Assembly: GCF_003664005.1 (NCBI RefSeq)
Contig: NZ_RCCJ01000001.1
Span: 310,001 to 374,000 of the forward strand
DNA: 64,000 nucleotides
From: Hydrogenivirga caldilitoris
GTDB taxonomy: Bacteria; Aquificota; Aquificia; Aquificales; Aquificaceae
Direction of reading: 5' to 3'
In this document: piece by piece, positions 14,500 to 27,496 of the stretch
Numbering within the stretch: position 1 is the stretch's first letter
Layout of the letters: each line of letters starts with the position of its first letter
Translations under genes and position numbers: made by a program
The notes under the pieces: generated by a model
What the model saw: only the letters and a program-made list of their open reading frames with translations
Told to the model about the DNA's origin: nothing
Database searches by the model: none

Positions 14500-14946
14500 T
14501 TACCTTTTGACCTCTTCAAGTTTCCTGGCAGCAGCGTAAAGAACTGCCTCGGCAACAACTTGACCATCAACGGTGGCTGTTCCCTTCATCTTGGAGAGGG
14601 TTTTCTTTAAAGACAGGGTTTCAAGCTCCATAACGAGCTGGTCTCCAGGGAAAACAGGCCTTTTAAACCTGGCATCATCTATACCTGCGAAAACAACCGC
14701 ATACTTGCCTATCTCTAAATTGAGAGACTTTATCATAAGTATCCCTCCGACCTGAGCCATGGCTTCAAGGACGTAAACCCCGGGAAAGAGAGGGAATCCT
14801 GGGAAGTGTCCCTGAAACACAGGCTCGTTCACCGAAACGTTCTTAATCCCTACTATCCTCTTCCCCTCTTCGTATTCGGTGATTCTGTCAACAAGCAGCA
14901 GGGGATACCTGTGGGGCAGTATGTCCATTATCTCAAGTATGTCCAT
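14500..14946 (-). CDS. fabZ: 3-hydroxyacyl-ACP dehydratase
   Basis: About 148 aa in a hot-dog fold. [14 protein letters not shown] at the N-terminus and the active-site region [20 protein letters not shown], with its His and Glu, identify FabZ. This enzyme removes water from 3-hydroxyacyl-ACP in fatty-acid elongation. I start at ATG 14946 ([15 protein letters not shown]). A TTG six codons upstream is possible. TATAAT ends six bases before this ATG and no ribosome site exists, so a leaderless message is likely. The 3' end abuts the convergent FtsB-like gene. Confidence 0.95.
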
Positions 14947-14952
14947 GCAGGT

Positions 14953-14958
14953 ATTATA
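14953..14958 (-). promoter_or_regulatory. Perfect -10 hexamer TATAAT six bases before the fabZ start
   Basis: TATAAT-N6-ATG(14946). The hexamer overlaps the archease stop codon. Best-matching example of the leaderless-type arrangement in the window. Confidence 0.45.
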
Positions 14959-15367
14959 TATCAAAGATTACCTCTGCAACGTATCTCTCTCCTTCTTTGG
15001 CTACCTTTAATCTATGGTATGTGGCAGCTTTTATCACAAGTTTGGATGGGTGTTTTTGAGGGTCAAACTTTTCTCCCCTAAGTCTTACCTTTACACTGTC
15101 ATCTTCCAGCTTCAAAACCTCGCATTCGGAGGCAACAAAACCTTTGCTTTCGTGTAGGACAATCGCTTCATTTATAAGGTCCGCAAGGAGGAAGGGTAGC
15201 GGAGAACGGACTTGTATTTCATAGCTTTCCTTTTTCTCAACCGTAGCTATATCCGTCATCTCGTTAAAGGTCGCAAGGAGCGCTTTGCAGAAAACATCCT
15301 CCAGTGAGTTCCCCCAGACTCTTATTCCAGCGTCTGCAGTTATATCGTCTATGGTTTCGTAGAACAT
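14954..15367 (-). CDS. Archease family protein
   Basis: This 137-aa protein has the archease layout: an N-terminal [10 protein letters not shown] (family pattern HTADxxxxxxG), a central [12 protein letters not shown] and KAATYHRL near residue 118, with VIFDI at the C-terminus. Archeases activate the RtcB RNA ligase in RNA repair or tRNA splicing by promoting guanylation. No rtcB is visible in the window, so the partner must lie elsewhere. The start ATG 15367 is six bases after the stop of the PelB-like gene. fabZ follows, nearly overlapping. Confidence 0.88.
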
Positions 15368-15376
15368 AGTTTTTAT

Positions 15377-18304
15377 TTAAAACCATCTTCTGTAATCAAG
15401 TCTTAAGTTTGTTAGTGTTTCCTTTACGCCACCGGCGTTCTGATTAACATTAAATCCGATTGTAAAGTGATCTCTATCTATCAGGCTTCCGCCCAAACCA
15501 CCCTCAAGTCCGGCGAGGATTCCGTACCGGCTGTTTACTCCCAGATCTACGCCCAAGAAAGGTCTCCAAACCCTCGTGTAAGTTTCCTTGTTTATGTAAC
15601 CTATATAGACGCCAACACCGGCTGCCAGATAGTCTTCAGGGAGAACCTGATAAGAAGGGTCAGGTAATACGGAAACGGTATCTCCCAATTTTCCACTCGA
15701 GGAGTAGTTTGCTAACTGACCGTATCCCTGTATCCTAATGTCCGGATAGTTAAGCCTTAGCCAGCGTTCCAGATATAAGGTGAAGGAAGCCCCCTTACCG
15801 AGCTCCGTTCTATCAGAGGAGAGAAATTTACTCCCCTCCAGTTCCAGAGATAGACCCACCCTGTTCGTGATGTTATGGAAAGCGGACAACCGCAGGAAGT
15901 CCTTTACACCCCCAAGGTAAAGATATATGGTCTCGTATGTCTCAGTATTGATACCTGTAGTGAAGGTCACGGAAGTCCTCTTAAGCCAGTTAGTTTCGTA
16001 ACTACCAATCACAAAGGGATTAGCTTTCAATCTTTTGAACACACCTAATTGCAGGTCAAACCGGCTACGTTCAAACCTCTTTGTAAATTTTGCACTTACC
16101 TTAAAACCTTCGGGTGCGTATTTCACCACATCGCTGTCTTTACTGAGGGGAAACATCACATCTGCACCCAATTCTGCTCCCCACCCGAGCTGTAGGTCTC
16201 TGAGTATCAGGTGGAACGTCTCTCTTGTTTCCGAATAACCTTTTCTGCTGAGAAAGCCTGCAGAGACTCCCATGTTATTGCCATGTTCCATAGTTAGATC
16301 TCTGAGCTGTTTGTAGAGACGATAATCGTAGGGGCTGTGTTCAAGGCTCGCAAAGGCGGTGTTCAACGCTCCCTCATACGCAAACAACCTTCTGTACGCC
16401 TCAACCTTATCCCTTCTCGGCAGGATGTCCTTCTTCTCCGAAAGCAAATTTTTAATCCCATACCTTTCCTCGTAGTGAAGCATCCTGTTGAGCTTCATCC
16501 ACGCCTTTTCTTTATAGCCCCTGAATCTTACCAGCCGGCGTTCCTTATCGTACCTTCCTTTACTCAGAAGGTAGGAGAGGTAGACCTCTCTCCATACATC
16601 GGAGGGCAGGGTTCTCTGGGAAGCAAACAGAAGCCTCTCATAAGCGGGTGACTTCAGGAACTCGGAAGCCAGATACAGATAATCCCGCATGAAATCGGAA
16701 TCTTCAGCAACGACCGGGGATTTTTTTAATACTTCAGTCCTTTTGAGGAACTCTTTATGTCTGATCTTTCTTGCTTCGTCTTCCTTACCGACAGCAGTTA
16801 AAATCTCTGCAAGAACAAGCTTGTCGTCCATACCTGCCCTTCTATAGAGATCCATAGCTTTTTTACCGTATTGAAGTTTGATGTAAGCAAATATAAAGGG
16901 TTCCGGCAGTAGGGTTGAATACCGCTCAAATTTACGAATGGCGGTCTTCAGTTTCTCAGGGTTATCCATATCAAGAAGGGTGTACAGGTAGAAGGTGAGC
17001 AGGTCTGGAGAGAAGCCCTTTTCTAATCTGTCTTCCATAATTTCAAAAGCGGTATCTCTCCTGCCGGTTTTTAATAAGGCGCTCACGTAATAGATCAAAA
17101 GGTAATCCTTACTCAGCATTAGTTCTCTTTCACTATCCCCTTCAGCTAAGCTAAGTATGGTGTCCCACATCTCGCTCTTATAGGCTATGTTCAGGGCTGT
17201 CTCCAGCAGTGAAGGGATTTTAAACTTTTTCCATCCTTCAAGGCTCAGCCGGAGAGCCCTCTCCGGATCTCTGCGGGAAAGCACGAGGGAAGCTCTTTCG
17301 TAATCTTCCGCCCTCCCCTCACCTGTGCTTATAAGATTTAAGGAGGCTTTTAAAGCATCCTCATACTCCTCAAGCATCCATGCGAGGTCCGAGAAGGTTT
17401 CCCAAAATTCTCCCTCTTTAGGTTCCTTCTGCGCATGGGCTTTCAAAGTTTTATAGGCCTCCCAGTGTCTTTTTTCGGAGTAAAGGATATTTGCTTTTAG
17501 CAAAACGAGCGCTGTATCAACACCGTACCTGTTCTCAATTTCTTCGATAACTTCCAGAGCCTCTTTCTTTTGACCCGTATAAAAAAGTATCTCAGCAAGA
17601 AGATGCTTTGCCTCTTTATCCTCCTGTGCTCTTAAGAGCTTTATTATCTTTTCAACTTCACCGAGCCCTTTGTATACTTCAAGGGCTAACTTGTACGAAG
17701 GTTTCACCTCATCTATCAACTTTTCAGCTATATCGTATCTCTCCAGAGAAAGGGCTAAGGAAAAGGCTCTTTCCGCATACTTCTTATCTCCCGTCAGATT
17801 ATAAGCCTTTAGAGTTGGTTCTAGAGCCTCCTTACTCCTGTTATTCCATATAAGTAACGTGGCGTACCTATCCCACCAAAAGGGATCCTGGGGGAAGAGC
17901 TGTGTTCCTTTCTTTGCCAGTTTGATTGCCTCTTCCTGCTTTCCAGAGCCTATCAGGGCGGACAGGAGCAGCTTCATAAGATCGTTCATATCACCACCCT
18001 TTCCGTAAAGAACTATCCTCTCCGGTTTATAAAGGCATGTTCTCAAGAAGGAATCGCGGAACTCTTTGAAGCGACGGATCTCCTTTAGGAGAGTCCCTGC
18101 CCTCTCTTTAGTGTTGAAAAATCCGACCCTTATAGTGTACTTACCCTTTATCAGTTCTATCCTCGCATCGGGGTAGTTTTCCACGAGGGGGAAGACGCTC
18201 TTCAGGTCATTAAGGTGTTCAGAGCTGGCGAGCTGAAGGCAGTAATACACCTCTCCGAAAGATACGGTCACCAGTATAAGCACAAGTATCAGCAACCTAA
18301 CCAT
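15377..18304 (-). CDS. pelB: PelB-like outer-membrane export protein: signal peptide, SPOR-like and TPR repeats, C-terminal beta-barrel
   Basis: This 975-aa protein has a signal peptide (1-17), a SPOR-like segment about 20-85 (YYCLQLAS...YTIRVGFF), many TPR-like helical repeats about 110-650, and a C-terminal 16-strand-type barrel region about 690-975 ending RLDYRRWF with terminal Phe. In Pseudomonas PelB is one protein of about 1,190 aa with a membrane anchor, periplasmic TPRs and an outer-membrane porin that exports the Pel polysaccharide. Here the anchored TPR part is encoded by the preceding gene, overlapping by 8 bases. It is the last gene of the pel operon. Confidence 0.82.
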   Translation of the reverse strand: MVRLLILVLILVTVSFGEVYYCLQLASSEHLNDLKSVFPLVENYPDARIELIKGKYTIRVGFFNTKERAGTLLKEIRRFKEFRDSFLRTCLYKPERIVLYGKGGDMNDLMKLLLSALIGSGKQEEAIKLAKKGTQLFPQDPFWWDRYATLLIWNNRSKEALEPTLKAYNLTGDKKYAERAFSLALSLERYDIAEKLIDEVKPSYKLALEVYKGLGEVEKIIKLLRAQEDKEAKHLLAEILFYTGQKKEALEVIEEIENRYGVDTALVLLKANILYSEKRHWEAYKTLKAHAQKEPKEGEFWETFSDLAWMLEEYEDALKASLNLISTGEGRAEDYERASLVLSRRDPERALRLSLEGWKKFKIPSLLETALNIAYKSEMWDTILSLAEGDSERELMLSKDYLLIYYVSALLKTGRRDTAFEIMEDRLEKGFSPDLLTFYLYTLLDMDNPEKLKTAIRKFERYSTLLPEPFIFAYIKLQYGKKAMDLYRRAGMDDKLVLAEILTAVGKEDEARKIRHKEFLKRTEVLKKSPVVAEDSDFMRDYLYLASEFLKSPAYERLLFASQRTLPSDVWREVYLSYLLSKGRYDKERRLVRFRGYKEKAWMKLNRMLHYEERYGIKNLLSEKKDILPRRDKVEAYRRLFAYEGALNTAFASLEHSPYDYRLYKQLRDLTMEHGNNMGVSAGFLSRKGYSETRETFHLILRDLQLGWGAELGADVMFPLSKDSDVVKYAPEGFKVSAKFTKRFERSRFDLQLGVFKRLKANPFVIGSYETNWLKRTSVTFTTGINTETYETIYLYLGGVKDFLRLSAFHNITNRVGLSLELEGSKFLSSDRTELGKGASFTLYLERWLRLNYPDIRIQGYGQLANYSSSGKLGDTVSVLPDPSYQVLPEDYLAAGVGVYIGYINKETYTRVWRPFLGVDLGVNSRYGILAGLEGGLGGSLIDRDHFTIGFNVNQNAGGVKETLTNLRLDYRRWF

Positions 18305-19331
18305 TCAACAACCCCATCTTCTTGGCTACTTTTTCGGCTATGTTCCCCGCAAAAGCGGAATCTCCTGTGGCAAGCGCCGACTTGACCATAAAACTGGTGA
18401 ATTCAATGTCCTCAACGTAAGCGGTCGCATATTTCTTTATGATCCTCTTTGCCAGATTCACATTCTTTCTTCCGAGAGCATAGTTCACTGCCAGTTTTAT
18501 AAGGGCTTTTCTTTTCTCACCTCTCGCCTCTTCTATTAAAGAAAGCAGTAGAAAACCCACATCCCTCTTAACTTTTACAGATAACCACAGAATGTCGTTT
18601 ATGTACTTATCCCGCAGATCGGGATACTTCTGTAAAAGCTTTGTAAGAACACCCAGCGCCTCCCCGTAATTTTCTGTCTCTAATAGGGTTCTATACTTGA
18701 GCAGAGCCCCTTTCTTACTCTCCTCTCCAAGAATGTCTATAAAGGGAAGTGCTACTGAATACTCACCCATACTGACCGCGAGTTCTACCACTTTTTCTAC
18801 CCAATTACTATCTCCAGTTTTCTTTGCTATCTTCTGAGCCGCATAGAGGGAAACGCCTGGCAAGTTCATGGAAATACCTTCTCTGTAAACGAACTTAAGT
18901 ATCTCTATATCTTCACTTTTATTCGCCAAAGTATAGAGGGTTTTCCTTATATCACTCAGGACGGCTCTCCTTTCTTCATCTTCTTTAAGTGCAAAAAAGC
19001 TGGTCTTTTTTATTCTGTATATCAGCATAATGGCTTCTATCTCTTTATTTTTGTAGTTTGAAAGTGTTTCAGCTACCCGTATGGCTTTATAATATTCCCC
19101 TTTCATCAAGTAACTCTCCGCTAACACCCTGAGAAGATCCGGCTCCTTACTGAACTCTGTAACCCTTTCAAGGTACTTTATACGAAGATCTACGTTCGTT
19201 ATAGTATCGCTGGAAAGGATTTCTTTCATACGCCACCCCGGAAAGAGAGCCAGCATTACACCTATGAAAACAATCAAAAAAGCTATAAACTCCCTAAAAG
19301 GGAATATTTCAGTAATGACAGACCGCTTCAA
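18297..19331 (-). CDS. Membrane-anchored TPR protein, probable separate N-terminal half of PelB
   Basis: About 344 aa. One membrane helix near the N-terminus (FIAFLIVFIGVMLALFPGW) is followed by TPR-like helices throughout. I start at TTG 19331; a ribosome site AAGGAGG lies 14 bases upstream and the pelA overlap is then 23 bases. An ATG at 19388 would give an 80-base overlap and no ribosome site, and CTG 19337 is also possible. Position between pelA and the barrel gene, and the anchor-plus-TPR layout, match the N-terminus of Pseudomonas PelB, which contacts PelA. A distinct TPR accessory cannot be excluded. Confidence 0.65.
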   Translation of the reverse strand: MKRSVITEIFPFREFIAFLIVFIGVMLALFPGWRMKEILSSDTITNVDLRIKYLERVTEFSKEPDLLRVLAESYLMKGEYYKAIRVAETLSNYKNKEIEAIMLIYRIKKTSFFALKEDEERRAVLSDIRKTLYTLANKSEDIEILKFVYREGISMNLPGVSLYAAQKIAKKTGDSNWVEKVVELAVSMGEYSVALPFIDILGEESKKGALLKYRTLLETENYGEALGVLTKLLQKYPDLRDKYINDILWLSVKVKRDVGFLLLSLIEEARGEKRKALIKLAVNYALGRKNVNLAKRIIKKYATAYVEDIEFTSFMVKSALATGDSAFAGNIAEKVAKKMGLLNG

Positions 19332-22023
19332 TCTCAGCTCTGTAACCTCCTTTATAGGTTTGCAAGCCCGAGGGTAGCCTCTTCCCATTTATACTTACGT
19401 TGCAGGGACCCGTATCCAGTTTGACCTCTAACGGAACGTATGCCCTAATAGCGAGGTGTATCCTTCCGTTCTCTCTCTTTGCGGACTCAACCTGCCCGTT
19501 GGTTTCCTCAAGATTGAACCAGTTCACCTTCTCCTTTGTAAACTCCAGATAGTAATTTCCGGTGCCGTCAAGGTTTACGTATATATCGTTGCCCCTTTCA
19601 TAAAAGCCTATTACGCCTTTACTCTTCCTGAGATCCGGATAGCCCATACTCCTGTCAACCCTGAGCGTCCTCAAATGACCGGAGTTTTTTATCCTGAATC
19701 CATTCCCCTCCTTAAGTAAAGCGGTCTCTCTGAAGTCTAAGACCTGAGCGGCAAATTCCGAAAGGAACATCGGATTCGTCCTTTCCGAAAGAGCATACTC
19801 GTAAACTCTCTTGAGAGCATTCAGGGAAGCTTGTTTTTGAGCGGAGTAGAAGTGGTAATAAATGGATATGGGCTTAAGCCTGTAAGGTTTATCCGTGAGT
19901 TTAAAGGTCTGTATAACGTTCATGTAGCCCCAGAAAGGTCCCGTCCAGAGGTTCGTGTACACGTTCTCGTTCTGAATAGGAGCGTAAACCTGAAAGTAAG
20001 GTCCGAAGTTAACTCCCATAGGAGATATGTTTCTAAGGAAAGGCTCGGCTTCGGTTACTGTTGTATCTCCCCCGTTTACGTTGAAAATACCGAGTTTGTA
20101 AGTAAGCTCCACTTCCTCCCCATCAGGGTCACAAGACCCGGTCCACTGGAACACTTTTACCTTCTTTCCTGTTTCCTCTAAAAGCTGATTTATAAACTCA
20201 ACCGAACCTTTTATCTCCCTGACAGGATCAAAACTGTAACCCTTTACAGGCAGGTTATAACCGTATTGGAGCTTCTTTTCCGAATACCTGTCCGTTTGCC
20301 ACGTGAAGGGATGGGAGAAGGAGTGAGAGGCGGGCTCCACATTGGGTAGGGAGAATATACTTTTAGCTATAGCCCGGAGCTTTTCCGATCTGTCGGGATA
20401 CAATCCGTAAGGAGCCACATCCGCCTCTATTAGGGAAACGGTGTGAGGAATTCCGTAAGCCTTTATCACTTCATCCCTTATTACCTCACCTAAATTTCTG
20501 TTGGGCGAGAACTCCGCGTTGCCAAAGAAGGCATCTCCGTCTATGTGGGCTGTAAGTATCCTCCTGCCGTTCTCCGTCGTAACATCCAGTGCCGGGAAAG
20601 GATCCTTTAAAAACACCATCCTGAAAATCTCAAAGGGGTTATAAACCCAGAGCTCTTCATCGTTGAGTAAGGAGCCGTCCACTGCATAACCTCCCCAGTT
20701 GGTAAGGGCAAAGGGGACGTGCTCCTGTCCTAAAGAGTTCTGAGCCACCACAAGAGCTTTCCCCGCAATAGGTTTAATCAACCTGTCCGTATACCTGAGT
20801 ATCAGCGGTACTTCAAATCCTGCACCTTCGTAGAAACTTTTTACCCTGAAACCGGAAGGATCTACGTCCCTGTTTCTCTCAACCTTTAAACCGAAACTCT
20901 TAAAAACCTCATCATTAGAAAAGGGAAAGTCCTCTATGAAGAATAACCTGAGACCTTCCTCCTTCGCCTTTAAAAGCCACCTGTCAAGATTAACACTTCT
21001 GTGGCTTATACCCATAGATACGACTCCTAAATAGCCCGCTTCGGGATAAACCTCCGGAAGCTCTTCGTTCACATCGTAAATTTCAGGGATAAAGCCGAGA
21101 TACTCCAAGGGCATTTGAATTAACCTATTAACGTCGGCAACCTGTCTTACTTTAAAAACACTTGAGTCGTAAAGAAGTATCACCCTCCGTGGAATCAAAT
21201 CACACTCCGAGTGACCTATACGGGATAGCTCTCTATCAGCAACGTACGGGATAAAGCCGAGAGCCTTTATCTTAGAAACCAGCTCCTTAGCGAGTTTTCT
21301 ATCCTTAGGGTCAGCGTAGTCTATAACAACAACAGGTAGCCCGTAACTCTTTGCCCTGCTTAGATATTTAAGCAGATAACCCCTTTCCTCCTCGGTTACC
21401 TCCCCGTATTCCCTTTCCTTACCCAAACCCCGGAAGAGACTCTCCGCCACAACGCCATTTATAAGGTTGTGTACCCTTTCAAGTATCTCTTCACCTCTGT
21501 TCAGTATTATCAACTTGTCCGGATACCTTGCCCTCAGATTCTTTATAAGTTCTACTTCCGCTCTCTCAAATTCCACATACTCTTCGGGCTTTACCGCGAG
21601 TTTATATGAGTCAAGAGTATCCAAGAAAAAGCCGTCAAACCCGCTATCCGCTATGCGCTTAGCAACAACGTCAAGAATATAGTTCACATAACCTTCTTTA
21701 CGTAAATCGGCGATGTAGGAATCCCACACGGGATTTTTTCCTATTGCGTACTTCTTAATATCCTCGTAGTAATTCCTGAACTTTTCAATCTCACCAACGC
21801 TTATGTAACCTATCAACTTGGAATTTCTCCTTAAATAAAAGCTCTTGTTTTTTATAACTTCCATAATTGGCGAATCGGCATCCAAGATTATCCAGTCGTA
21901 TGTATGTAGGATCTCCTCCGGAAAAATCTTGTGGTGATATAAGAACAGAACACATTTAGGAGAGTTAGCAAAGCTCAGTGTAAAACTAATCAGCAAGCAT
22001 AAAAGTCCTGTAATGTACCTCAC
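19309..22023 (-). CDS. pelA: PelA: periplasmic Pel polysaccharide glycoside hydrolase and deacetylase
   Basis: This 904-aa protein has a signal peptide (1-19). Residues about 22-270 are a GH114-like alpha-galactosaminidase domain, with acid residues Asp135 (FFLDTLDSY) and Glu194 (VVAESLF). A middle region leads to a deacetylase domain from about 488 (LTAHIDGDAFF) with the HxxxH pair His567/His571 (SHSFSHPF), matching the metal-site pattern of PelA. PelA partially deacetylates and can cut Pel, a GalNAc-rich cationic polymer, in the periplasm. The start is GTG 22023, seven bases after AGGAGG. It overlaps pelG. Confidence 0.9.
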   Translation of the reverse strand: MRYITGLLCLLISFTLSFANSPKCVLFLYHHKIFPEEILHTYDWIILDADSPIMEVIKNKSFYLRRNSKLIGYISVGEIEKFRNYYEDIKKYAIGKNPVWDSYIADLRKEGYVNYILDVVAKRIADSGFDGFFLDTLDSYKLAVKPEEYVEFERAEVELIKNLRARYPDKLIILNRGEEILERVHNLINGVVAESLFRGLGKEREYGEVTEEERGYLLKYLSRAKSYGLPVVVIDYADPKDRKLAKELVSKIKALGFIPYVADRELSRIGHSECDLIPRRVILLYDSSVFKVRQVADVNRLIQMPLEYLGFIPEIYDVNEELPEVYPEAGYLGVVSMGISHRSVNLDRWLLKAKEEGLRLFFIEDFPFSNDEVFKSFGLKVERNRDVDPSGFRVKSFYEGAGFEVPLILRYTDRLIKPIAGKALVVAQNSLGQEHVPFALTNWGGYAVDGSLLNDEELWVYNPFEIFRMVFLKDPFPALDVTTENGRRILTAHIDGDAFFGNAEFSPNRNLGEVIRDEVIKAYGIPHTVSLIEADVAPYGLYPDRSEKLRAIAKSIFSLPNVEPASHSFSHPFTWQTDRYSEKKLQYGYNLPVKGYSFDPVREIKGSVEFINQLLEETGKKVKVFQWTGSCDPDGEEVELTYKLGIFNVNGGDTTVTEAEPFLRNISPMGVNFGPYFQVYAPIQNENVYTNLWTGPFWGYMNVIQTFKLTDKPYRLKPISIYYHFYSAQKQASLNALKRVYEYALSERTNPMFLSEFAAQVLDFRETALLKEGNGFRIKNSGHLRTLRVDRSMGYPDLRKSKGVIGFYERGNDIYVNLDGTGNYYLEFTKEKVNWFNLEETNGQVESAKRENGRIHLAIRAYVPLEVKLDTGPCNVSINGKRLPSGLQTYKGGYRAEIEAVCHY

Positions 22024-23359
22024 TTAAGAACCTCCTCACGAGAATCATACCGATTACCGACGAGATCAAAAGGGATAGAGCGTATCCGTAGCCGTAAAAG
22101 TAAGGACCGAGAATCTGGCTCAGCACACTGAGTAGAAGGTTACCAGAGGCAAATACACCGCTTATTATGAGGATATCCTTTCTCCTATCAAAGTAGGATA
22201 GCAAGGCGAATAGAACCATAAAGGAAAGCTGGAGCAAAGCACCTATAAGAAGGATATTGAACATCGGTATGTAGACCAGAGACAGCTTGAAAAGTTTAAA
22301 GACCGCTTCCTCTAAGAGCAGAATTAGAATAACGGCTATGCCTTGTGCCCTGAGAGTCTCATAAAAAGTCGCCTTTGCTCCCTCAATCATCTTATTACCG
22401 AGCCTGTAAAGATCTTCAAGTCTGCCCCACTCTCTTACAGCCCGGTAATAGTTGTCATACTCGGCGAAGAATTCAGCCTCGATCTTTAGGAAGAATATAG
22501 CAAGTCCGGGTACGAGGGATACGTAAGCAAATATGACAGGAATATCGTAAACCACAGATGATCTTATGTTTGCAAACACAGGGTCTCCTGTGTAGGGACT
22601 GAACCAGAAAACTAACTTGTCAGCCCATATACCAAAGTTATAAAAAAAGCCGGAGAGCAGAAGGGAATAATGAGACCTCCCTTTTTTCAAAAAGTCCAAT
22701 TCAAACAACCTGTCGGAGGTGTAATCCCTCACCACCCTGTAGGTAAGCAGAAACAGCAACAGACACTGACCCAGATAAAAAGATACAAAGGTAGCGAAGA
22801 GACTTATTCTTGCGGTAAATATCAACGCCAAACCTGTGAGCAGATAGGATACTGCGAAGGAAATCAGAATATGCTTATAGCTCTTAAGCCCTGTAAGGAG
22901 GGCGTTTGTTATCCACAATCCTCCAAGGACCGATACGGTAAAGCTGAAAACGAGATGATAGTAGTAAGGTTCTCCTTTGAACAAGTAAAGGGAAGCCAGC
23001 ATTGCCATAACCAGTGAGATAAACATGCCCAGGGAGAGAGCACCAAAATAGTTAGGTAGAACTCTATCTACCTCCTTTTCAAACAACCTGTCCGCTACAT
23101 ACCGGGTGAACATCAATTGAATCGGTCCGGAAATTATAAGGCTCAGAGCGACAGTATAAGTTATATAAACCTGATAGATTATCGGTATACTTGGGTCCCG
23201 GGCAACCGTACTTGCGATTAAGGAAAATATAAATATGGATGCAACTGCAATTACCCAGTTCCCGGCACTCAGAACCGCAGAGTATCCGGTCGCAGCCAGA
23301 AGATTTAAGAGACTTTCCCTCTGTAAAATTTTTTTAAGCTCAATGGAAATCCCTGCCAC
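21986..23359 (-). CDS. pelG: PelG: polytopic inner-membrane protein of Pel export
   Basis: This 457-aa protein has about 12 membrane helices. The opening GISIELKKILQRESLLNLLAA is typical of PelG, a MATE/Wzx-like protein that forms the inner-membrane synthase complex with PelD, PelE and PelF. It starts at GTG 23359, overlapping the pelF stop, and its 3' end overlaps pelA. The placement between pelF and pelA and the normal length make the assignment firm. Confidence 0.9.
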   Translation of the reverse strand: MAGISIELKKILQRESLLNLLAATGYSAVLSAGNWVIAVASIFIFSLIASTVARDPSIPIIYQVYITYTVALSLIISGPIQLMFTRYVADRLFEKEVDRVLPNYFGALSLGMFISLVMAMLASLYLFKGEPYYYHLVFSFTVSVLGGLWITNALLTGLKSYKHILISFAVSYLLTGLALIFTARISLFATFVSFYLGQCLLLFLLTYRVVRDYTSDRLFELDFLKKGRSHYSLLLSGFFYNFGIWADKLVFWFSPYTGDPVFANIRSSVVYDIPVIFAYVSLVPGLAIFFLKIEAEFFAEYDNYYRAVREWGRLEDLYRLGNKMIEGAKATFYETLRAQGIAVILILLLEEAVFKLFKLSLVYIPMFNILLIGALLQLSFMVLFALLSYFDRRKDILIISGVFASGNLLLSVLSQILGPYFYGYGYALSLLISSVIGMILVRRFLSEVHYRTFMLAD

Positions 23360-24842
23360 TTCCTACCCCCAAAAAACTTTCATACACGTTCTGGTAGTTT
23401 TTTAAAAAGGTTTCCATAGAGTAGAAGTTTTCAACTCTTCTCACCGCAGCTTCCTGACATCTGAACCACAATTCCTTATCTGTGAGCAATCGCTCATAGG
23501 CTTCCGCAAGTTTGCTCACATTACCAACGGAAACGACCTCACCTGCTTTACCTATTCTCTTATCCTCTTCGTTGAGTCCCCCGTATATAAGCTGTCTACA
23601 CGAACCGACGTCTGTGGTAACACACGGAACACCCGCCGCAAAGGATTCAAGAACCACTATGGGCATACCTTCACTAACGGAGGTCAGGGTGGTCAAACCT
23701 ATCGTGGGGAAGACCTCTTCAAGCTTTCTGAAACCGAGGAACTTAACCTTACCTTCAAGCCCAAGGGCTTTTACCAGCATACGACACTCTTGGGCATATG
23801 AAGGATCTTCGTCTTCCGGTCCCACTATCCATCCCTCCGCTTGAGGAAGCTTATCGGTTAGGAGTTTCATAGCCTTTATAAAGGTTTTCACATCTTTGAT
23901 TGGTGTAACCCTTCCTATCAGAGCTACTCTTTGAGGAACATCTTCGTCAGGTTTCCTGCGCAAAGGTCTGTACTTTGCTATGTCAACTCCGTTCGGTATA
24001 ACCTCCGTCTTTTCAGGAGGGCATCCCAGTTCTGTCTGAATGTTGCGGGCTCTTTCAAAAAGAGAGTAAACACGGTCGGCAGATCTGTAAGATATGTAGC
24101 CCAGGTTGATAAAGAAGTCTATCCATATCTTTCGAACGATATCTATATCGTATTTGTCCATCAGGAAGTCTCGGGCAGATCTAATTTGTGCGGAACTTAA
24201 TATGTCTATCTTCCTCTCCCGTGTATATATGCCGTGTTCGGTAACGATATAGGGTATTCCCTTGCTTATCCTCAAGAGAGCTCCGAGGAAACCGGCGTAT
24301 CCCGTTGAAGGGCTGTGGACAACTCCTATATCTTTATCCCTTAACTTATCAAGGGCATTAACGACCACCCAGAGAGGGGTCAAAATGTTCCTTACCGTCC
24401 AGAAAAAGTCTATGAAGGGAATATCTGGATCTAAGTTCTCGTAGAGCTCCTCAAGCATATACCATGTTTCCTTCCCGTAAAGAAAGTCGGAAAAAGAAAC
24501 CTCCTCCCTGTAAAAGTCGGGATCAGCCAGTTTGGGAGACGGGCTCTTAGAAAAGAGTGTAATCAGTTCCCTTACCTGAGGTTTACCTCTCCTCTCTTCG
24601 GGAGGGGGGAGACTCAGCTTTGAAAATAGGAAGAAGCTTTTTAGAAATACGAGGTTATCCGGCAGGTCGTATTTTATACCCTCGTAATCCTCCTCTCTGG
24701 AACCCAAAAACAGAACACCGAACTTTATGTCCTGCATTCCGGTTATCAGCTGGTGTATCCAGGTTGACACTCCTCCTCTTATATAGGGATAGGTACCCTC
24801 CGCTATGAATAGAACGTCTATCCTCTCACCCTTGTCTATCAT
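23340..24842 (-). CDS. pelF: PelF: cytoplasmic GT4 glycosyltransferase of Pel synthesis
   Basis: This 500-aa GT-B fold enzyme starts with DVLFIAEGTYPYIRGGVSTW, a PelF hallmark with the nucleotide-sugar-binding Gly-rich loop. It has the retaining GT4 EX7E pattern in SEGMPIVVLESFAAGVPC. PelF polymerises UDP-linked HexNAc and is recruited by PelD-E-G. Length and opening match the family. It lies four bases after pelE and overlaps pelG by 20 bases. Confidence 0.92.
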   Translation of the reverse strand: MIDKGERIDVLFIAEGTYPYIRGGVSTWIHQLITGMQDIKFGVLFLGSREEDYEGIKYDLPDNLVFLKSFFLFSKLSLPPPEERRGKPQVRELITLFSKSPSPKLADPDFYREEVSFSDFLYGKETWYMLEELYENLDPDIPFIDFFWTVRNILTPLWVVVNALDKLRDKDIGVVHSPSTGYAGFLGALLRISKGIPYIVTEHGIYTRERKIDILSSAQIRSARDFLMDKYDIDIVRKIWIDFFINLGYISYRSADRVYSLFERARNIQTELGCPPEKTEVIPNGVDIAKYRPLRRKPDEDVPQRVALIGRVTPIKDVKTFIKAMKLLTDKLPQAEGWIVGPEDEDPSYAQECRMLVKALGLEGKVKFLGFRKLEEVFPTIGLTTLTSVSEGMPIVVLESFAAGVPCVTTDVGSCRQLIYGGLNEEDKRIGKAGEVVSVGNVSKLAEAYERLLTDKELWFRCQEAAVRRVENFYSMETFLKNYQNVYESFLGVGSGRDFH

Positions 24843-24846
24843 AGCT

Positions 24847-25782
24847 TCACATCCAAACCCTTATAATAGAAGCGGCTTTGGGTTCCGAGGGCATTATTCC
24901 CCTGAACTTGTTAACCACCTCAAACATCCTCTTAAAATCACCCCGCTTGTAAAGGACCTCAAGCAGGTAAGGTATCAACCTTTCCTTAGGGAAACCTAAT
25001 CTTTCGGCTCTTTCTAAATGTTCCGCTGCATTATCATAATCTCCTTTATGCAGGTATATTCTTACAAGCAGGAACTCCATTCGGGGATCTTCCTTAAGCT
25101 CCAGAGCCTGAAGGGCATACTTCTCGGCTTCCGCGAGGTAAAACTCCTGCAACTCCCTATCGGCGATATTCAAGTAAACGATCTCCCAGTAAAGCTCAGC
25201 TAAGGAAAACAATACGGCGAACCGCTCCCTTTTCCCCTTTACCTTTTCCAAATCTTTCTTAAATAGGTTTATCCTCTCCACTATCTCCGATTCTATACGG
25301 GACAGGGTGGCAAAGGCTGTGAGCCTCACCTCATCCTCTTCATCCGCCACGGATTCCTTGAGATAACTTATGGCAACAGGGTTATATGTCTTGCTCATAT
25401 ACAGAACCATAACGGGATTCCTTATCTGTCCCAAAGACTCGCCCAGCTTTCTGCCTCTAAACTCAACCTCGGGGAGTAACTCCGGGCTCACATTATCGTA
25501 TATCACAGGGCTAACTCTCCTCTTAAGCATCAGGGTTATATAAAGCATTAGTCCTAAAACGTATCCTGCCGGTCCCGACAGAAATATCAGGAAGCTAAAC
25601 GTCCTGATTGACCCTTTTCTAAACTCTTGCTTAATCAGCAACCTTAAGGCAATTGCTATTAACCATGAAGCCAGCCCGTGAAAAACAAGATAAAGTAATA
25701 CACTCTGTATATTATGGAATTTTAAGACCAAAAGAAGCCCGGTTATTTCCGTAACTGTAGCTATCGGTATATTTTTAAACAT
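24847..25782 (-). CDS. pelE: PelE: membrane and TPR scaffold of the Pel synthase complex
   Basis: This 311-aa protein has two to three N-terminal membrane helices in the first ~90 residues. A soluble part rich in TPR-like helix pairs follows (for example YALQALELKEDPRMEFLLVRIYLHKGDYDNAAEHL, about 215-250). Pseudomonas PelE has two membrane helices plus TPRs and bridges PelD to PelF. The sequence itself is poorly conserved, so the name rests on topology and its position between pelD and pelF. It overlaps pelD by 8 bases. Confidence 0.8.
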   Translation of the reverse strand: MFKNIPIATVTEITGLLLVLKFHNIQSVLLYLVFHGLASWLIAIALRLLIKQEFRKGSIRTFSFLIFLSGPAGYVLGLMLYITLMLKRRVSPVIYDNVSPELLPEVEFRGRKLGESLGQIRNPVMVLYMSKTYNPVAISYLKESVADEEDEVRLTAFATLSRIESEIVERINLFKKDLEKVKGKRERFAVLFSLAELYWEIVYLNIADRELQEFYLAEAEKYALQALELKEDPRMEFLLVRIYLHKGDYDNAAEHLERAERLGFPKERLIPYLLEVLYKRGDFKRMFEVVNKFRGIMPSEPKAASIIRVWM

Positions 25783-27004
25783 TGTTTCTTACCTCTGTAA
25801 GTATGCTTTCAAGAGAGGGCTCTTTTACTTCATGGACCAGAACGAGTTCAAGATTGGTGTGTTTGTCCTGAATCCTTTTAGCAAAGCTCTTAGCGTTTAG
25901 GGGAGCTGTGAAGGGCAATAAGAAAATCACCAAGCCTTTAGTAGGGATATAGCACACCAAATCCAGCGAACGTACGGAGTGCTCAATCTCATACAGGTCC
26001 TCTTCCGTCAGATTTTGAGAGCTAAAGACCACTATACTGCTTAATACACCGAGCTTTCTTTTCAACTCCGCCATCTTGTAGAGCTCTTTTACAAACTCGT
26101 AATCACAGTATCTGCTTTCCTTCTTGTACAGAGGGGCTATATTCTTAGCGAAGGTGATATCCTCCACAATATACTGCATAAGTATTTGGATGTAGGTAAG
26201 TACTTCTTCGTTGAGATTGACAAAGAGCATGTCCTTGATCACAAGTAAATACCTATCCCTTTCTGAAGAAGCAACAATAACTGCAAGGTATCTTGATTCT
26301 GTATCATCCTCTCCTTCAAGTACCTTTTTAAGGGCTTTAGGAGGAAGATAGTAGCTTTCTTCCGATTCAATAGCCTCCTTTATTGGCGGACTTTCAAGAT
26401 CAAGGTTTTTTTCCATACCGCCTATACCGGCGATGTAATCTACCTTATCGTCTACGAGTTTAAATACACCCGCTTTGTATACCTGAAAGTTATAACTCAG
26501 TATAGATAGGAAAAACTCCACGAGGGCTTTATCCTCTTTATTTATCAACATCTTCTCCCTTAACTCCTTTATCATTCTTCTAAGACTGTAAGGTTTTACT
26601 ATGTAGTTAAACTCCAGCTGGTCGTGGGACAACTTAAGTAAGAAGAGCTCTTTTTTGAGCCTGTCAATATGCTCCTGTAGATAATCCCTTTCAAACTCGG
26701 CAGTTTTTATCCGTCTTGACCAGTAGTACCTGAACTCAGAAGCTATCAGGACTACGATAGTATTCCAAAGTAGTTCCGGAATGGGGAACTTCTCATAAAG
26801 TAGTACGGACGCTAAAGAGAGCAAGCCAACAAAAGGCAACCCTCCCCTGAAACCATAGTAAAGAGACAGAACCATAGATATGAGAATTGATGGAGAGAGA
26901 AGAGTATTGAAAAAGAAAGGATCTTCCCTTCTCAGAAGGAAGCCAATTATCGTATAAGCGACAGCGAATCCGAGAACTTCCAGAAGTATAAGAAAATTTA
27001 CCAT
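25775..27004 (-). CDS. pelD: PelD: membrane c-di-GMP receptor of the Pel synthase
   Basis: This 409-aa protein has about four N-terminal membrane helices (1-90), a coiled coil (about 100-135), a GAF-like domain and a degenerate GGDEF domain. The inhibitory-site motif RxxD is present as R345-SL-D348. Five residues later PTKGL stands where GGDEF would be. This is the PelD signature: no cyclase activity, but c-di-GMP binding through the I-site. It should switch on Pel polymerisation in response to c-di-GMP. It sits between pelC and pelE. Confidence 0.88.
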   Translation of the reverse strand: MVNFLILLEVLGFAVAYTIIGFLLRREDPFFFNTLLSPSILISMVLSLYYGFRGGLPFVGLLSLASVLLYEKFPIPELLWNTIVVLIASEFRYYWSRRIKTAEFERDYLQEHIDRLKKELFLLKLSHDQLEFNYIVKPYSLRRMIKELREKMLINKEDKALVEFFLSILSYNFQVYKAGVFKLVDDKVDYIAGIGGMEKNLDLESPPIKEAIESEESYYLPPKALKKVLEGEDDTESRYLAVIVASSERDRYLLVIKDMLFVNLNEEVLTYIQILMQYIVEDITFAKNIAPLYKKESRYCDYEFVKELYKMAELKRKLGVLSSIVVFSSQNLTEEDLYEIEHSVRSLDLVCYIPTKGLVIFLLPFTAPLNAKSFAKRIQDKHTNLELVLVHEVKEPSLESILTEVRNNV

Positions 27005-27007
27005 CCT

Positions 27008-27496
27008 TTACTGGAAAACTCCTCTTAAAAGTTTCTGTGTTACGGTGCCGAGGGACTCGTGTGCCCATCCCGTTGATGAAAGAGAAGCCCCATAAACCAC
27101 CTTATCCGTAGAGGTCTCGATAACATATACTGTTATGCTGACTGCCGGTTCTCCGTCTATCCCCGTCTTATACCTGTATTCATTTACGGTTCCGTATATA
27201 ACATAATCTGCATTATCTTTAGCCTTCTTTAGTATCTCTGAAAGCTCCTCCGATGTTGGGTCTGTAGATTTGTAATTCCATACTCTTTCAGAAACTCTGA
27301 ATCCTTTGGCTCTTAAGATTCCTTCCACTATGGAGGCAACGCTGTAGCCTGCCAACGGAGTATCGCTGTAGTTTTCAAAGGGCACGACCGCATACGTCTT
27401 TGAGCTATCAAAACTACGCCTGCCCGTATCAACAACTTTTGCACACGACAGGATAATTAAGGAGAAAAGAAAGAGAATATAGACACTTCTTCTCAT
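27008..27496 (-). CDS. pelC: PelC: outer-membrane lipoprotein of Pel export
   Basis: This 162-aa protein has a lipobox ending LSC at residue 18. The mature domain YAVVPFENYSDTPLAGYSVASIVEGILRAKG is similar to the TolB-N/CsgG-like fold used by PelC. In Pseudomonas twelve PelC molecules form an acidic periplasmic ring under PelB. It is the first gene of the pel operon. The start follows a purine-rich AAAGGGGGG ribosome site, and the upstream 77 bases separate it from divergent miaB. Confidence 0.85.
   Translation of the reverse strand: MRRSVYILFLFSLIILSCAKVVDTGRRSFDSSKTYAVVPFENYSDTPLAGYSVASIVEGILRAKGFRVSERVWNYKSTDPTSEELSEILKKAKDNADYVIYGTVNEYRYKTGIDGEPAVSITVYVIETSTDKVVYGASLSSTGWAHESLGTVTQKLLRGVFQ

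Follow-up and report, generated by a model that had tools for sequence, protein, structure and literature searches.

A Predicted Pel Operon from Aquificota with a Two-Protein PelB Exporter and a SPOR Domain on the Outer-Membrane Half

We found that a 64,000-nucleotide stretch (the window; bases 310001–374000) of a closed 1.75 Mb genome from the phylum Aquificota contains what appears to be a complete Pel exopolysaccharide operon, with all seven functions present, in which the exporter PelB is divided between two proteins. We put the probability at about 0.8 that this is a c-di-GMP-controlled Pel operon with a two-protein exporter whose outer-membrane half, PelB2, is docked by a SPOR domain. 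Pel is a biofilm polysaccharide; if the operon makes it, the polymer would be partly deacetylated alpha-1,4-GalNAc. Eight open reading frames, separated by gaps of at most a few bases, occupy the minus strand from 27496 to 15377, each where the initial annotation had placed it: pelC-D-E-F-G-A, then a TPR protein (363 aa), then a TPR-barrel protein (975 aa). The features are as follows.

27008..27496, minus strand: pelC, outer-membrane lipoprotein (162 aa, lipobox ILSC; phmmer match to solved PelC)
25775..27004, minus strand: pelD, putative membrane c-di-GMP receptor (PF16963; RxxD motif, RSLD)
24847..25782, minus strand: pelE, inner-membrane protein with a C-terminal TPR (synteny and homology)
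23340..24842, minus strand: pelF, GT4 polymerising glycosyltransferase (NF038011 equivalog, E 1.9e-163)
21986..23359, minus strand: pelG, inner-membrane exporter (PF16933, E 7.3e-118)
19309..22023, minus strand: pelA, periplasmic hydrolase/deacetylase (phmmer to PelA structure 9cgy)
18297..19388, minus strand: pelB1, inner-membrane helix (31–48) and TPR solenoid, equivalent to the PelB N-terminus (hhalign, profile, model)
18297..18304, minus strand: overlap of pelB1 stop and pelB2 start, 8 bases (ATGGTTAG; read from the sequence)
15377..18304, minus strand: pelB2, signal peptide, SPOR domain, TPR solenoid and 16-strand barrel, equivalent to the C-terminal three quarters of PelB (PF24604, profile, model)
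18005..18253, minus strand: SPOR domain of pelB2, residues 18–100 (non-Pel SPOR profile, shuffles, model fold)

The initial annotation had read the locus as a complete Pel operon in the order C-D-E-F-G-A-B1-B2, and family and structure matches for all of its parts bear this out. The genes for the GT4 polymerase PelF and the exporter PelG are adjacent, and both proteins score far above the curated cut-offs. PelA aligns over its full length with the four-domain PelA structure 9cgy (residues 22–883, 862 residues, E 4.4e-140 by phmmer) and keeps the hydrolase stretch FLDTLDS and the deacetylase stretches HIDGD and SHxFSH. PelC matches the solved PelC entries 5t10, 5t0z and 9h80_C by phmmer (E 1.5e-20 to 2e-17). 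The GGDEF match of PelD to PF16963 is barely above the cut-off (28.2 bits against 27), and a phmmer search of the PDB did not match solved PelD at E 1e-3; the translation retains the RxxD motif ahead of a degenerate GGDEF position. This motif, and a genomic complement of about 24 GGDEF proteins, make c-di-GMP control of the operon plausible. The assignment of PelE rests on synteny and on homology to the gene that separates pelD from pelF in annotated betaproteobacterial operons; its profile matches the Azonexus gene in that position (E 3e-45). Promoter and terminator scans at the locus returned results at about chance level. After pelB2, at 14500–15367 on the minus strand, lie archease-like and FabZ-like genes (named from their translations), which are separated by 9 bases or overlap and may be co-read with the operon.

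All seven functions are shared with pelABCDEFG of P. aeruginosa (PelB, PDB 9h80; Pseudomonas PelA, PDB 9cgy), and the likeness extends to the full-length PelA match, the PelC match, the 16-strand PelB barrel and the N-terminal inner-membrane helix of PelB. The window differs in its gene order, in the cut through PelB, and in the SPOR domain on the outer-membrane half.

The cut was located by profile comparison. A profile made from 18 PelB1 proteins aligned with fused PelB at an hhalign probability of 98.7 (E 1.6e-16), with the membrane helix and the repeats that follow it both aligned. In P. aeruginosa PelB, the PelB1 profile found residues 53–244 (E 5e-17) and the PelB2 profile found residues 284–1178 (E 2.7e-99); the two profiles thus cover PelB end to end and meet near residue 250–284. 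The PelA-binding repeats, which are TPR9–14 in P. aeruginosa PelB (PMC12022489), fall within PelB2 in the profile alignment. The AlphaFold model of PelB1 (pLDDT 87.6) consists of a membrane helix (31–48) and a TPR solenoid, and that of PelB2 (pLDDT 88.9) of a signal peptide, a SPOR fold, a solenoid and 16 strands. The best structural match of the PelB2 model in the PDB was 9h80_M, the PelB chain of the PelBC complex, with BcsC and the solved polysaccharide barrel 4y25 among its neighbours, and the barrel family PF24604 was matched at E 3.7e-31. A Foldseek search of the PDB with the PelB1 model gave only generic TPR superhelices, so a structure search alone would miss its homology to PelB. We nevertheless judge PelB1, from the profile alignments, to be a true homologue of the PelB N-terminus, membrane helix included. 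The inner-membrane helix, TPR scaffold and 16-strand barrel of PelB are thus all present, shared between two proteins rather than joined in a single chain. The stop codon of pelB1 (TAG, 18299–18297) and the start codon of pelB2 (ATG, 18304–18302) have ATGGTTAG in common, an overlap of exactly 8 bases; the true start of pelB1 may lie downstream of 19388. The proposal that PelB is encoded by two genes overlapping by 8 bases, one for a TPR protein of the inner membrane and one for a TPR-barrel protein of the outer membrane, is upheld, because profiles match both halves of PelB. PelB1 is annotated today merely as a TPR protein, and the split provides a correction.

We examined how widely this arrangement occurs. 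PelF scored above the cut-off in 49 of 136 Aquificota genomes, and in every pel neighbourhood complete enough to judge PelB was split; none was fused. Whether other Aquificota share the split was a check proposed with the initial annotation, and the answer is that they do. The gene order in the phylum is usually that of the window, apart from the Thermocrinis group, in which pelB2 lies ahead of pelC, and some inversions. In a wider survey of eighty named PelF loci, mostly from outside Aquificota, the split and the gene order of the window also occurred together in Campylobacterota, one Elusimicrobia genome and some Deltaproteobacteria. Split PelB was found within a Pseudomonas-like A-B-C-D-E-F-G order in Geobacteraceae, Rhodoferax, Alcanivorax and one Moraxellaceae genome. 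Whole-genome samples gave a PelB N-terminus in a short open reading frame in 4/4 Desulfobacterota (the remaining matches being weak and of generic TPR type) and in 14 of 18 Campylobacterota (of the others, one was fused, two had a longer first piece and one was weak and ambiguous); in the Pseudomonadota sample, the 13 other genomes with a PelB N-terminus were all fused, none having the short frame. The start and stop overlap by 4 bases in 41 of 61 split pairs, and PelB2 of the conserved pairs bears a signal peptide. Split PelB thus appears, from the loci compared, to be the normal state in Aquificota and common in other phyla, a variant of wide occurrence and no peculiarity of this genome. Three minor observations arose from these surveys. 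Only 2 of 17 genomes of the window's genus have PelF above the cut-off. One genome (G114, contig 3, L058 9248–10735) carries an additional PelF that is highly divergent (about 27% identity), beside which no other pel genes were detected, and has a normal pel operon elsewhere. A record titled 'Acidobacteria bacterium' (RFFP01000022.1; L093/L039) holds the same stretch as G039, a genome placed in Aquificota, and its public title looks wrong.

The split itself is not new. A figure legend of 2020 mentions 'PelB fission ... in aquatic thermophilic species' (PMC7112194), and that survey, which very probably concerns the same group, also has split PelB and altered gene order in thermophiles; the text of it that we found calls the event fission and describes no break site, SPOR domain or wider distribution. 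In the open-licence literature, where searches covered SPOR and exopolysaccharide export, Geobacter pel and Aquificales pel, we found no earlier account of a SPOR-bearing PelB, or of split PelB beyond the 2020 legend, which is weak evidence of novelty. The following appear to be new: that the split is widespread, that it falls at a common site in nearly all lineages, that fused PelBs do not form a single clade, and that SPOR domains are linked to the split form. The exporters PgaA, BcsC and AlgK/AlgE, like PelB, combine a TPR scaffold with an outer-membrane barrel, and AlgK/AlgE likewise consists of two proteins (PMC12022489). Unlike split PelB, these systems have no inner-membrane-anchored TPR half homologous to PelB1, and they serve other polymers.

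Two readings would remove the split altogether, and the initial annotation had named both as possible refutations. pelB1 and pelB2 overlap and lie in different frames, as might be expected of a frameshift or sequencing error in a single PelB gene, but the same split in all judgeable Aquificota loci, in many species and in closed as well as draft genomes, together with the signal peptide of PelB2, leaves that reading with almost no credibility. It is also very improbable that the first TPR gene encodes an unrelated PilW-like accessory protein inserted between pelA and the exporter. Pfam and NCBIfam give it weak generic TPR matches only (PilW, E 0.002), but the PelB1 profile aligns with the PelB N-terminus across the membrane helix and the motif that follows, and on fused PelBs it lies in register with PelB2. 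A third proposal, that a longer split scaffold serves a wider periplasm, accepts the split and explains it by length. With about 866 residues, the scaffold is indeed longer than that of P. aeruginosa PelB, which has about 807 (PMC12022489); however, this difference of about 60 residues, or about two TPRs, is small, and no greater length is seen in the split PelBs of Geobacteraceae and Alcanivorax (PelB1 about 295–319 aa, PelB2 about 926–942 aa). We consider this proposal, which also came from the initial annotation, unsupported and very unlikely.

The direction of change is a separate matter. In almost all fused PelBs, the end of the PelB1 profile and the start of the PelB2 profile (at position 26–46, past the signal-peptide part) coincide at one place. 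The fused protein of L104 illustrates this: the end of PelB1 is joined to the first PelB2 TPR exactly where the split sister L103 has a stop, a start and a signal peptide. Fused PelB thus seems to equal PelB1 plus a PelB2 without its signal peptide, with one homologous break site in nearly all lineages, a correspondence that appears to be new. In a tree of PelF and PelG (123 rows), gene order changes twice and the fused or split state six times, and a single origin of the fused PelBs as one clade was rejected by the AU test (p 0.0003). If the split is ancestral and change irreversible, 7–9 fusions are needed; if the fused form is ancestral and change irreversible, it takes 10–11 fissions, close to a single site and each with the gain of a signal peptide. 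Fused Campylobacterota are nested among split forms in the C-first clade. Rooting with PelFG of Fusobacterium/Cetobacterium and Azospirillum/Cereibacter gave long branches, and because of these long outgroup branches at the base the tree does not decide between gain and loss of the split. The comparisons favour fusion as the common direction, firmly in the C-first clade and weakly at the root.

We give slightly less than even odds to the view that PelB began as a two-protein relay, with a TPR half at the inner membrane and a secreted, often SPOR-docked TPR-barrel half, and that the one-chain Pseudomonas PelB is a derived fusion, made several times by deletion of the pelB1 stop codon together with the signal peptide of the second protein and, where present, its SPOR domain. 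The suggestion in the initial annotation of an ancestral arrangement before fusion is thus favoured, though unproven, by the shared break site, by the scatter of fused PelBs over more than one clade and by the nested Campylobacterota fusions. The opposite course, in which PelB was originally one chain and was cut repeatedly, its outer-membrane portions acquiring signal peptides and in some cases SPOR domains, is possible but in our judgment somewhat less likely. It agrees with the term used in the 2020 survey text (PMC7112194) and with the fused majority in the Pseudomonadota sample. Breaks that look like true fission also exist at other sites, in a Nautiliaceae locus (L092) and in a three-piece PelB (G064) whose last piece has two SPOR domains, so that fission with gain of a signal peptide can occur. 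Against it, the break lies at the one homologous place in every other split form across two deep clades, the irreversible events it needs are more numerous, and fused forms nest among split ones in the C-first clade.

Several loci depart from the common pattern. The three-piece PelB (L080 15645–19255) consists of PelB1, a secreted TPR piece (529 aa) and a barrel piece (673 aa) that also carries two SPOR domains. In the Nautiliaceae locus (L092 15356–18765; 723 and 413 aa) the break lies just before the barrel, and the barrel piece opens with a weak SPOR-like stretch; a break in that position, leaving an anchored piece of 661–741 aa, is also found in L108 (7081–9066), G479 and G144. In the PelF and PelG tree the Aquificota families are not sorted by taxonomy (for example, G038 of family f1 groups with f2 genomes, and G039 joins the Sulfurihydrogenibium group), and they are interspersed with some loci of Campylobacterota and of the delta group. 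These placements against taxonomy suggest horizontal transfer of pel loci.

The SPOR domain of PelB2 is borderline by Pfam, scoring 17 bits in hmmscan and 21.0 in a genome search against a PF05036 cut-off of 21. It is nevertheless convincing: the orthologue in the same genus scores 34.7 bits, a profile built solely from non-Pel SPOR domains detects it (E 1.4e-5), none of 2000 shuffled sequences reached its score, and its model has the order beta-alpha-beta-beta-alpha-beta. A SPOR-like segment after the signal peptide, as the initial annotation described, is thereby confirmed. Q24 and R59 are invariant; in the SPOR domain of RlpA, a glutamine and an arginine contact denuded glycan (PMC6895207), and these two residues are retained in PelB2. 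SPOR domains are present in 17–20 of 59 split PelB2 proteins and in 0 of 33 fused PelBs, counts that come from sequences related by descent and are not independent trials; the figure of 20 includes L097, L107 and L133, judged by eye, and the weak case of L092, and L139 is counted as split because it has a separate PelB1 despite a fused-like length. The SPOR-bearing proteins, sometimes with tandem domains, come from several Aquificota lineages, Campylobacterota and Rhodoferax. Parsimony requires 11 changes among split forms. The domain is present in G101 and absent from its close relative G099, so gain or loss can be recent. About two thirds of split PelB2 proteins have no recognisable SPOR domain; we rejected the domain as an explanation of every split exporter, and it is evidently not needed for a split exporter to function.

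In the mechanism that we propose, PelF would polymerise a GalNAc-type sugar, PelD, PelE and PelG would carry the polymer through the inner membrane, and PelB1, with its inner-membrane helix and about eight TPRs, would take it over. PelA would trim and deacetylate the polymer on the TPRs of PelB2, and PelB2 and a PelC ring would pass it across the outer membrane, as in the export of Pel by PelB and PelC (PMC12141448). Through its SPOR domain, just after the signal peptide, PelB2 probably attaches the beginning of its solenoid to peptidoglycan without stem peptides; this docking would keep PelB2 aligned with PelB1 and substitute for the covalent link of one-chain PelB. We infer that PelB1 and PelB2 pair, that the SPOR domain binds the cell wall in this organism, and that the organism produces Pel; the two genes are retained together in Aquificota and other phyla. 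How Pel traverses the periplasm is unsettled, as is the question of a physical PelB bridge between the two membranes (PMC12141448). Natural two-piece exporters indicate that export does not require a covalent bridge, suggest that docking on the cell wall can take its place, and mark a point, ahead of the PelA-binding repeats, at which the scaffold can be cut. The split design offers a direct test in P. aeruginosa, and the thermophilic PelB1 and PelB2 are candidates for structural work.

Two further SPOR proteins were observed. One is a 223-aa protein encoded outside the pel operon (G006, C76 8687–8893; L189), whose SPOR domain is of the PelB2 sequence type (YCIQLLSS...PYARVE). The other, encoded upstream of the pel operon in G104 (L067 526–4410), is a 1294-aa protein with SPOR and TPR regions that matches the PelB2 profile at 2e-106 and is possibly a diverged second exporter.
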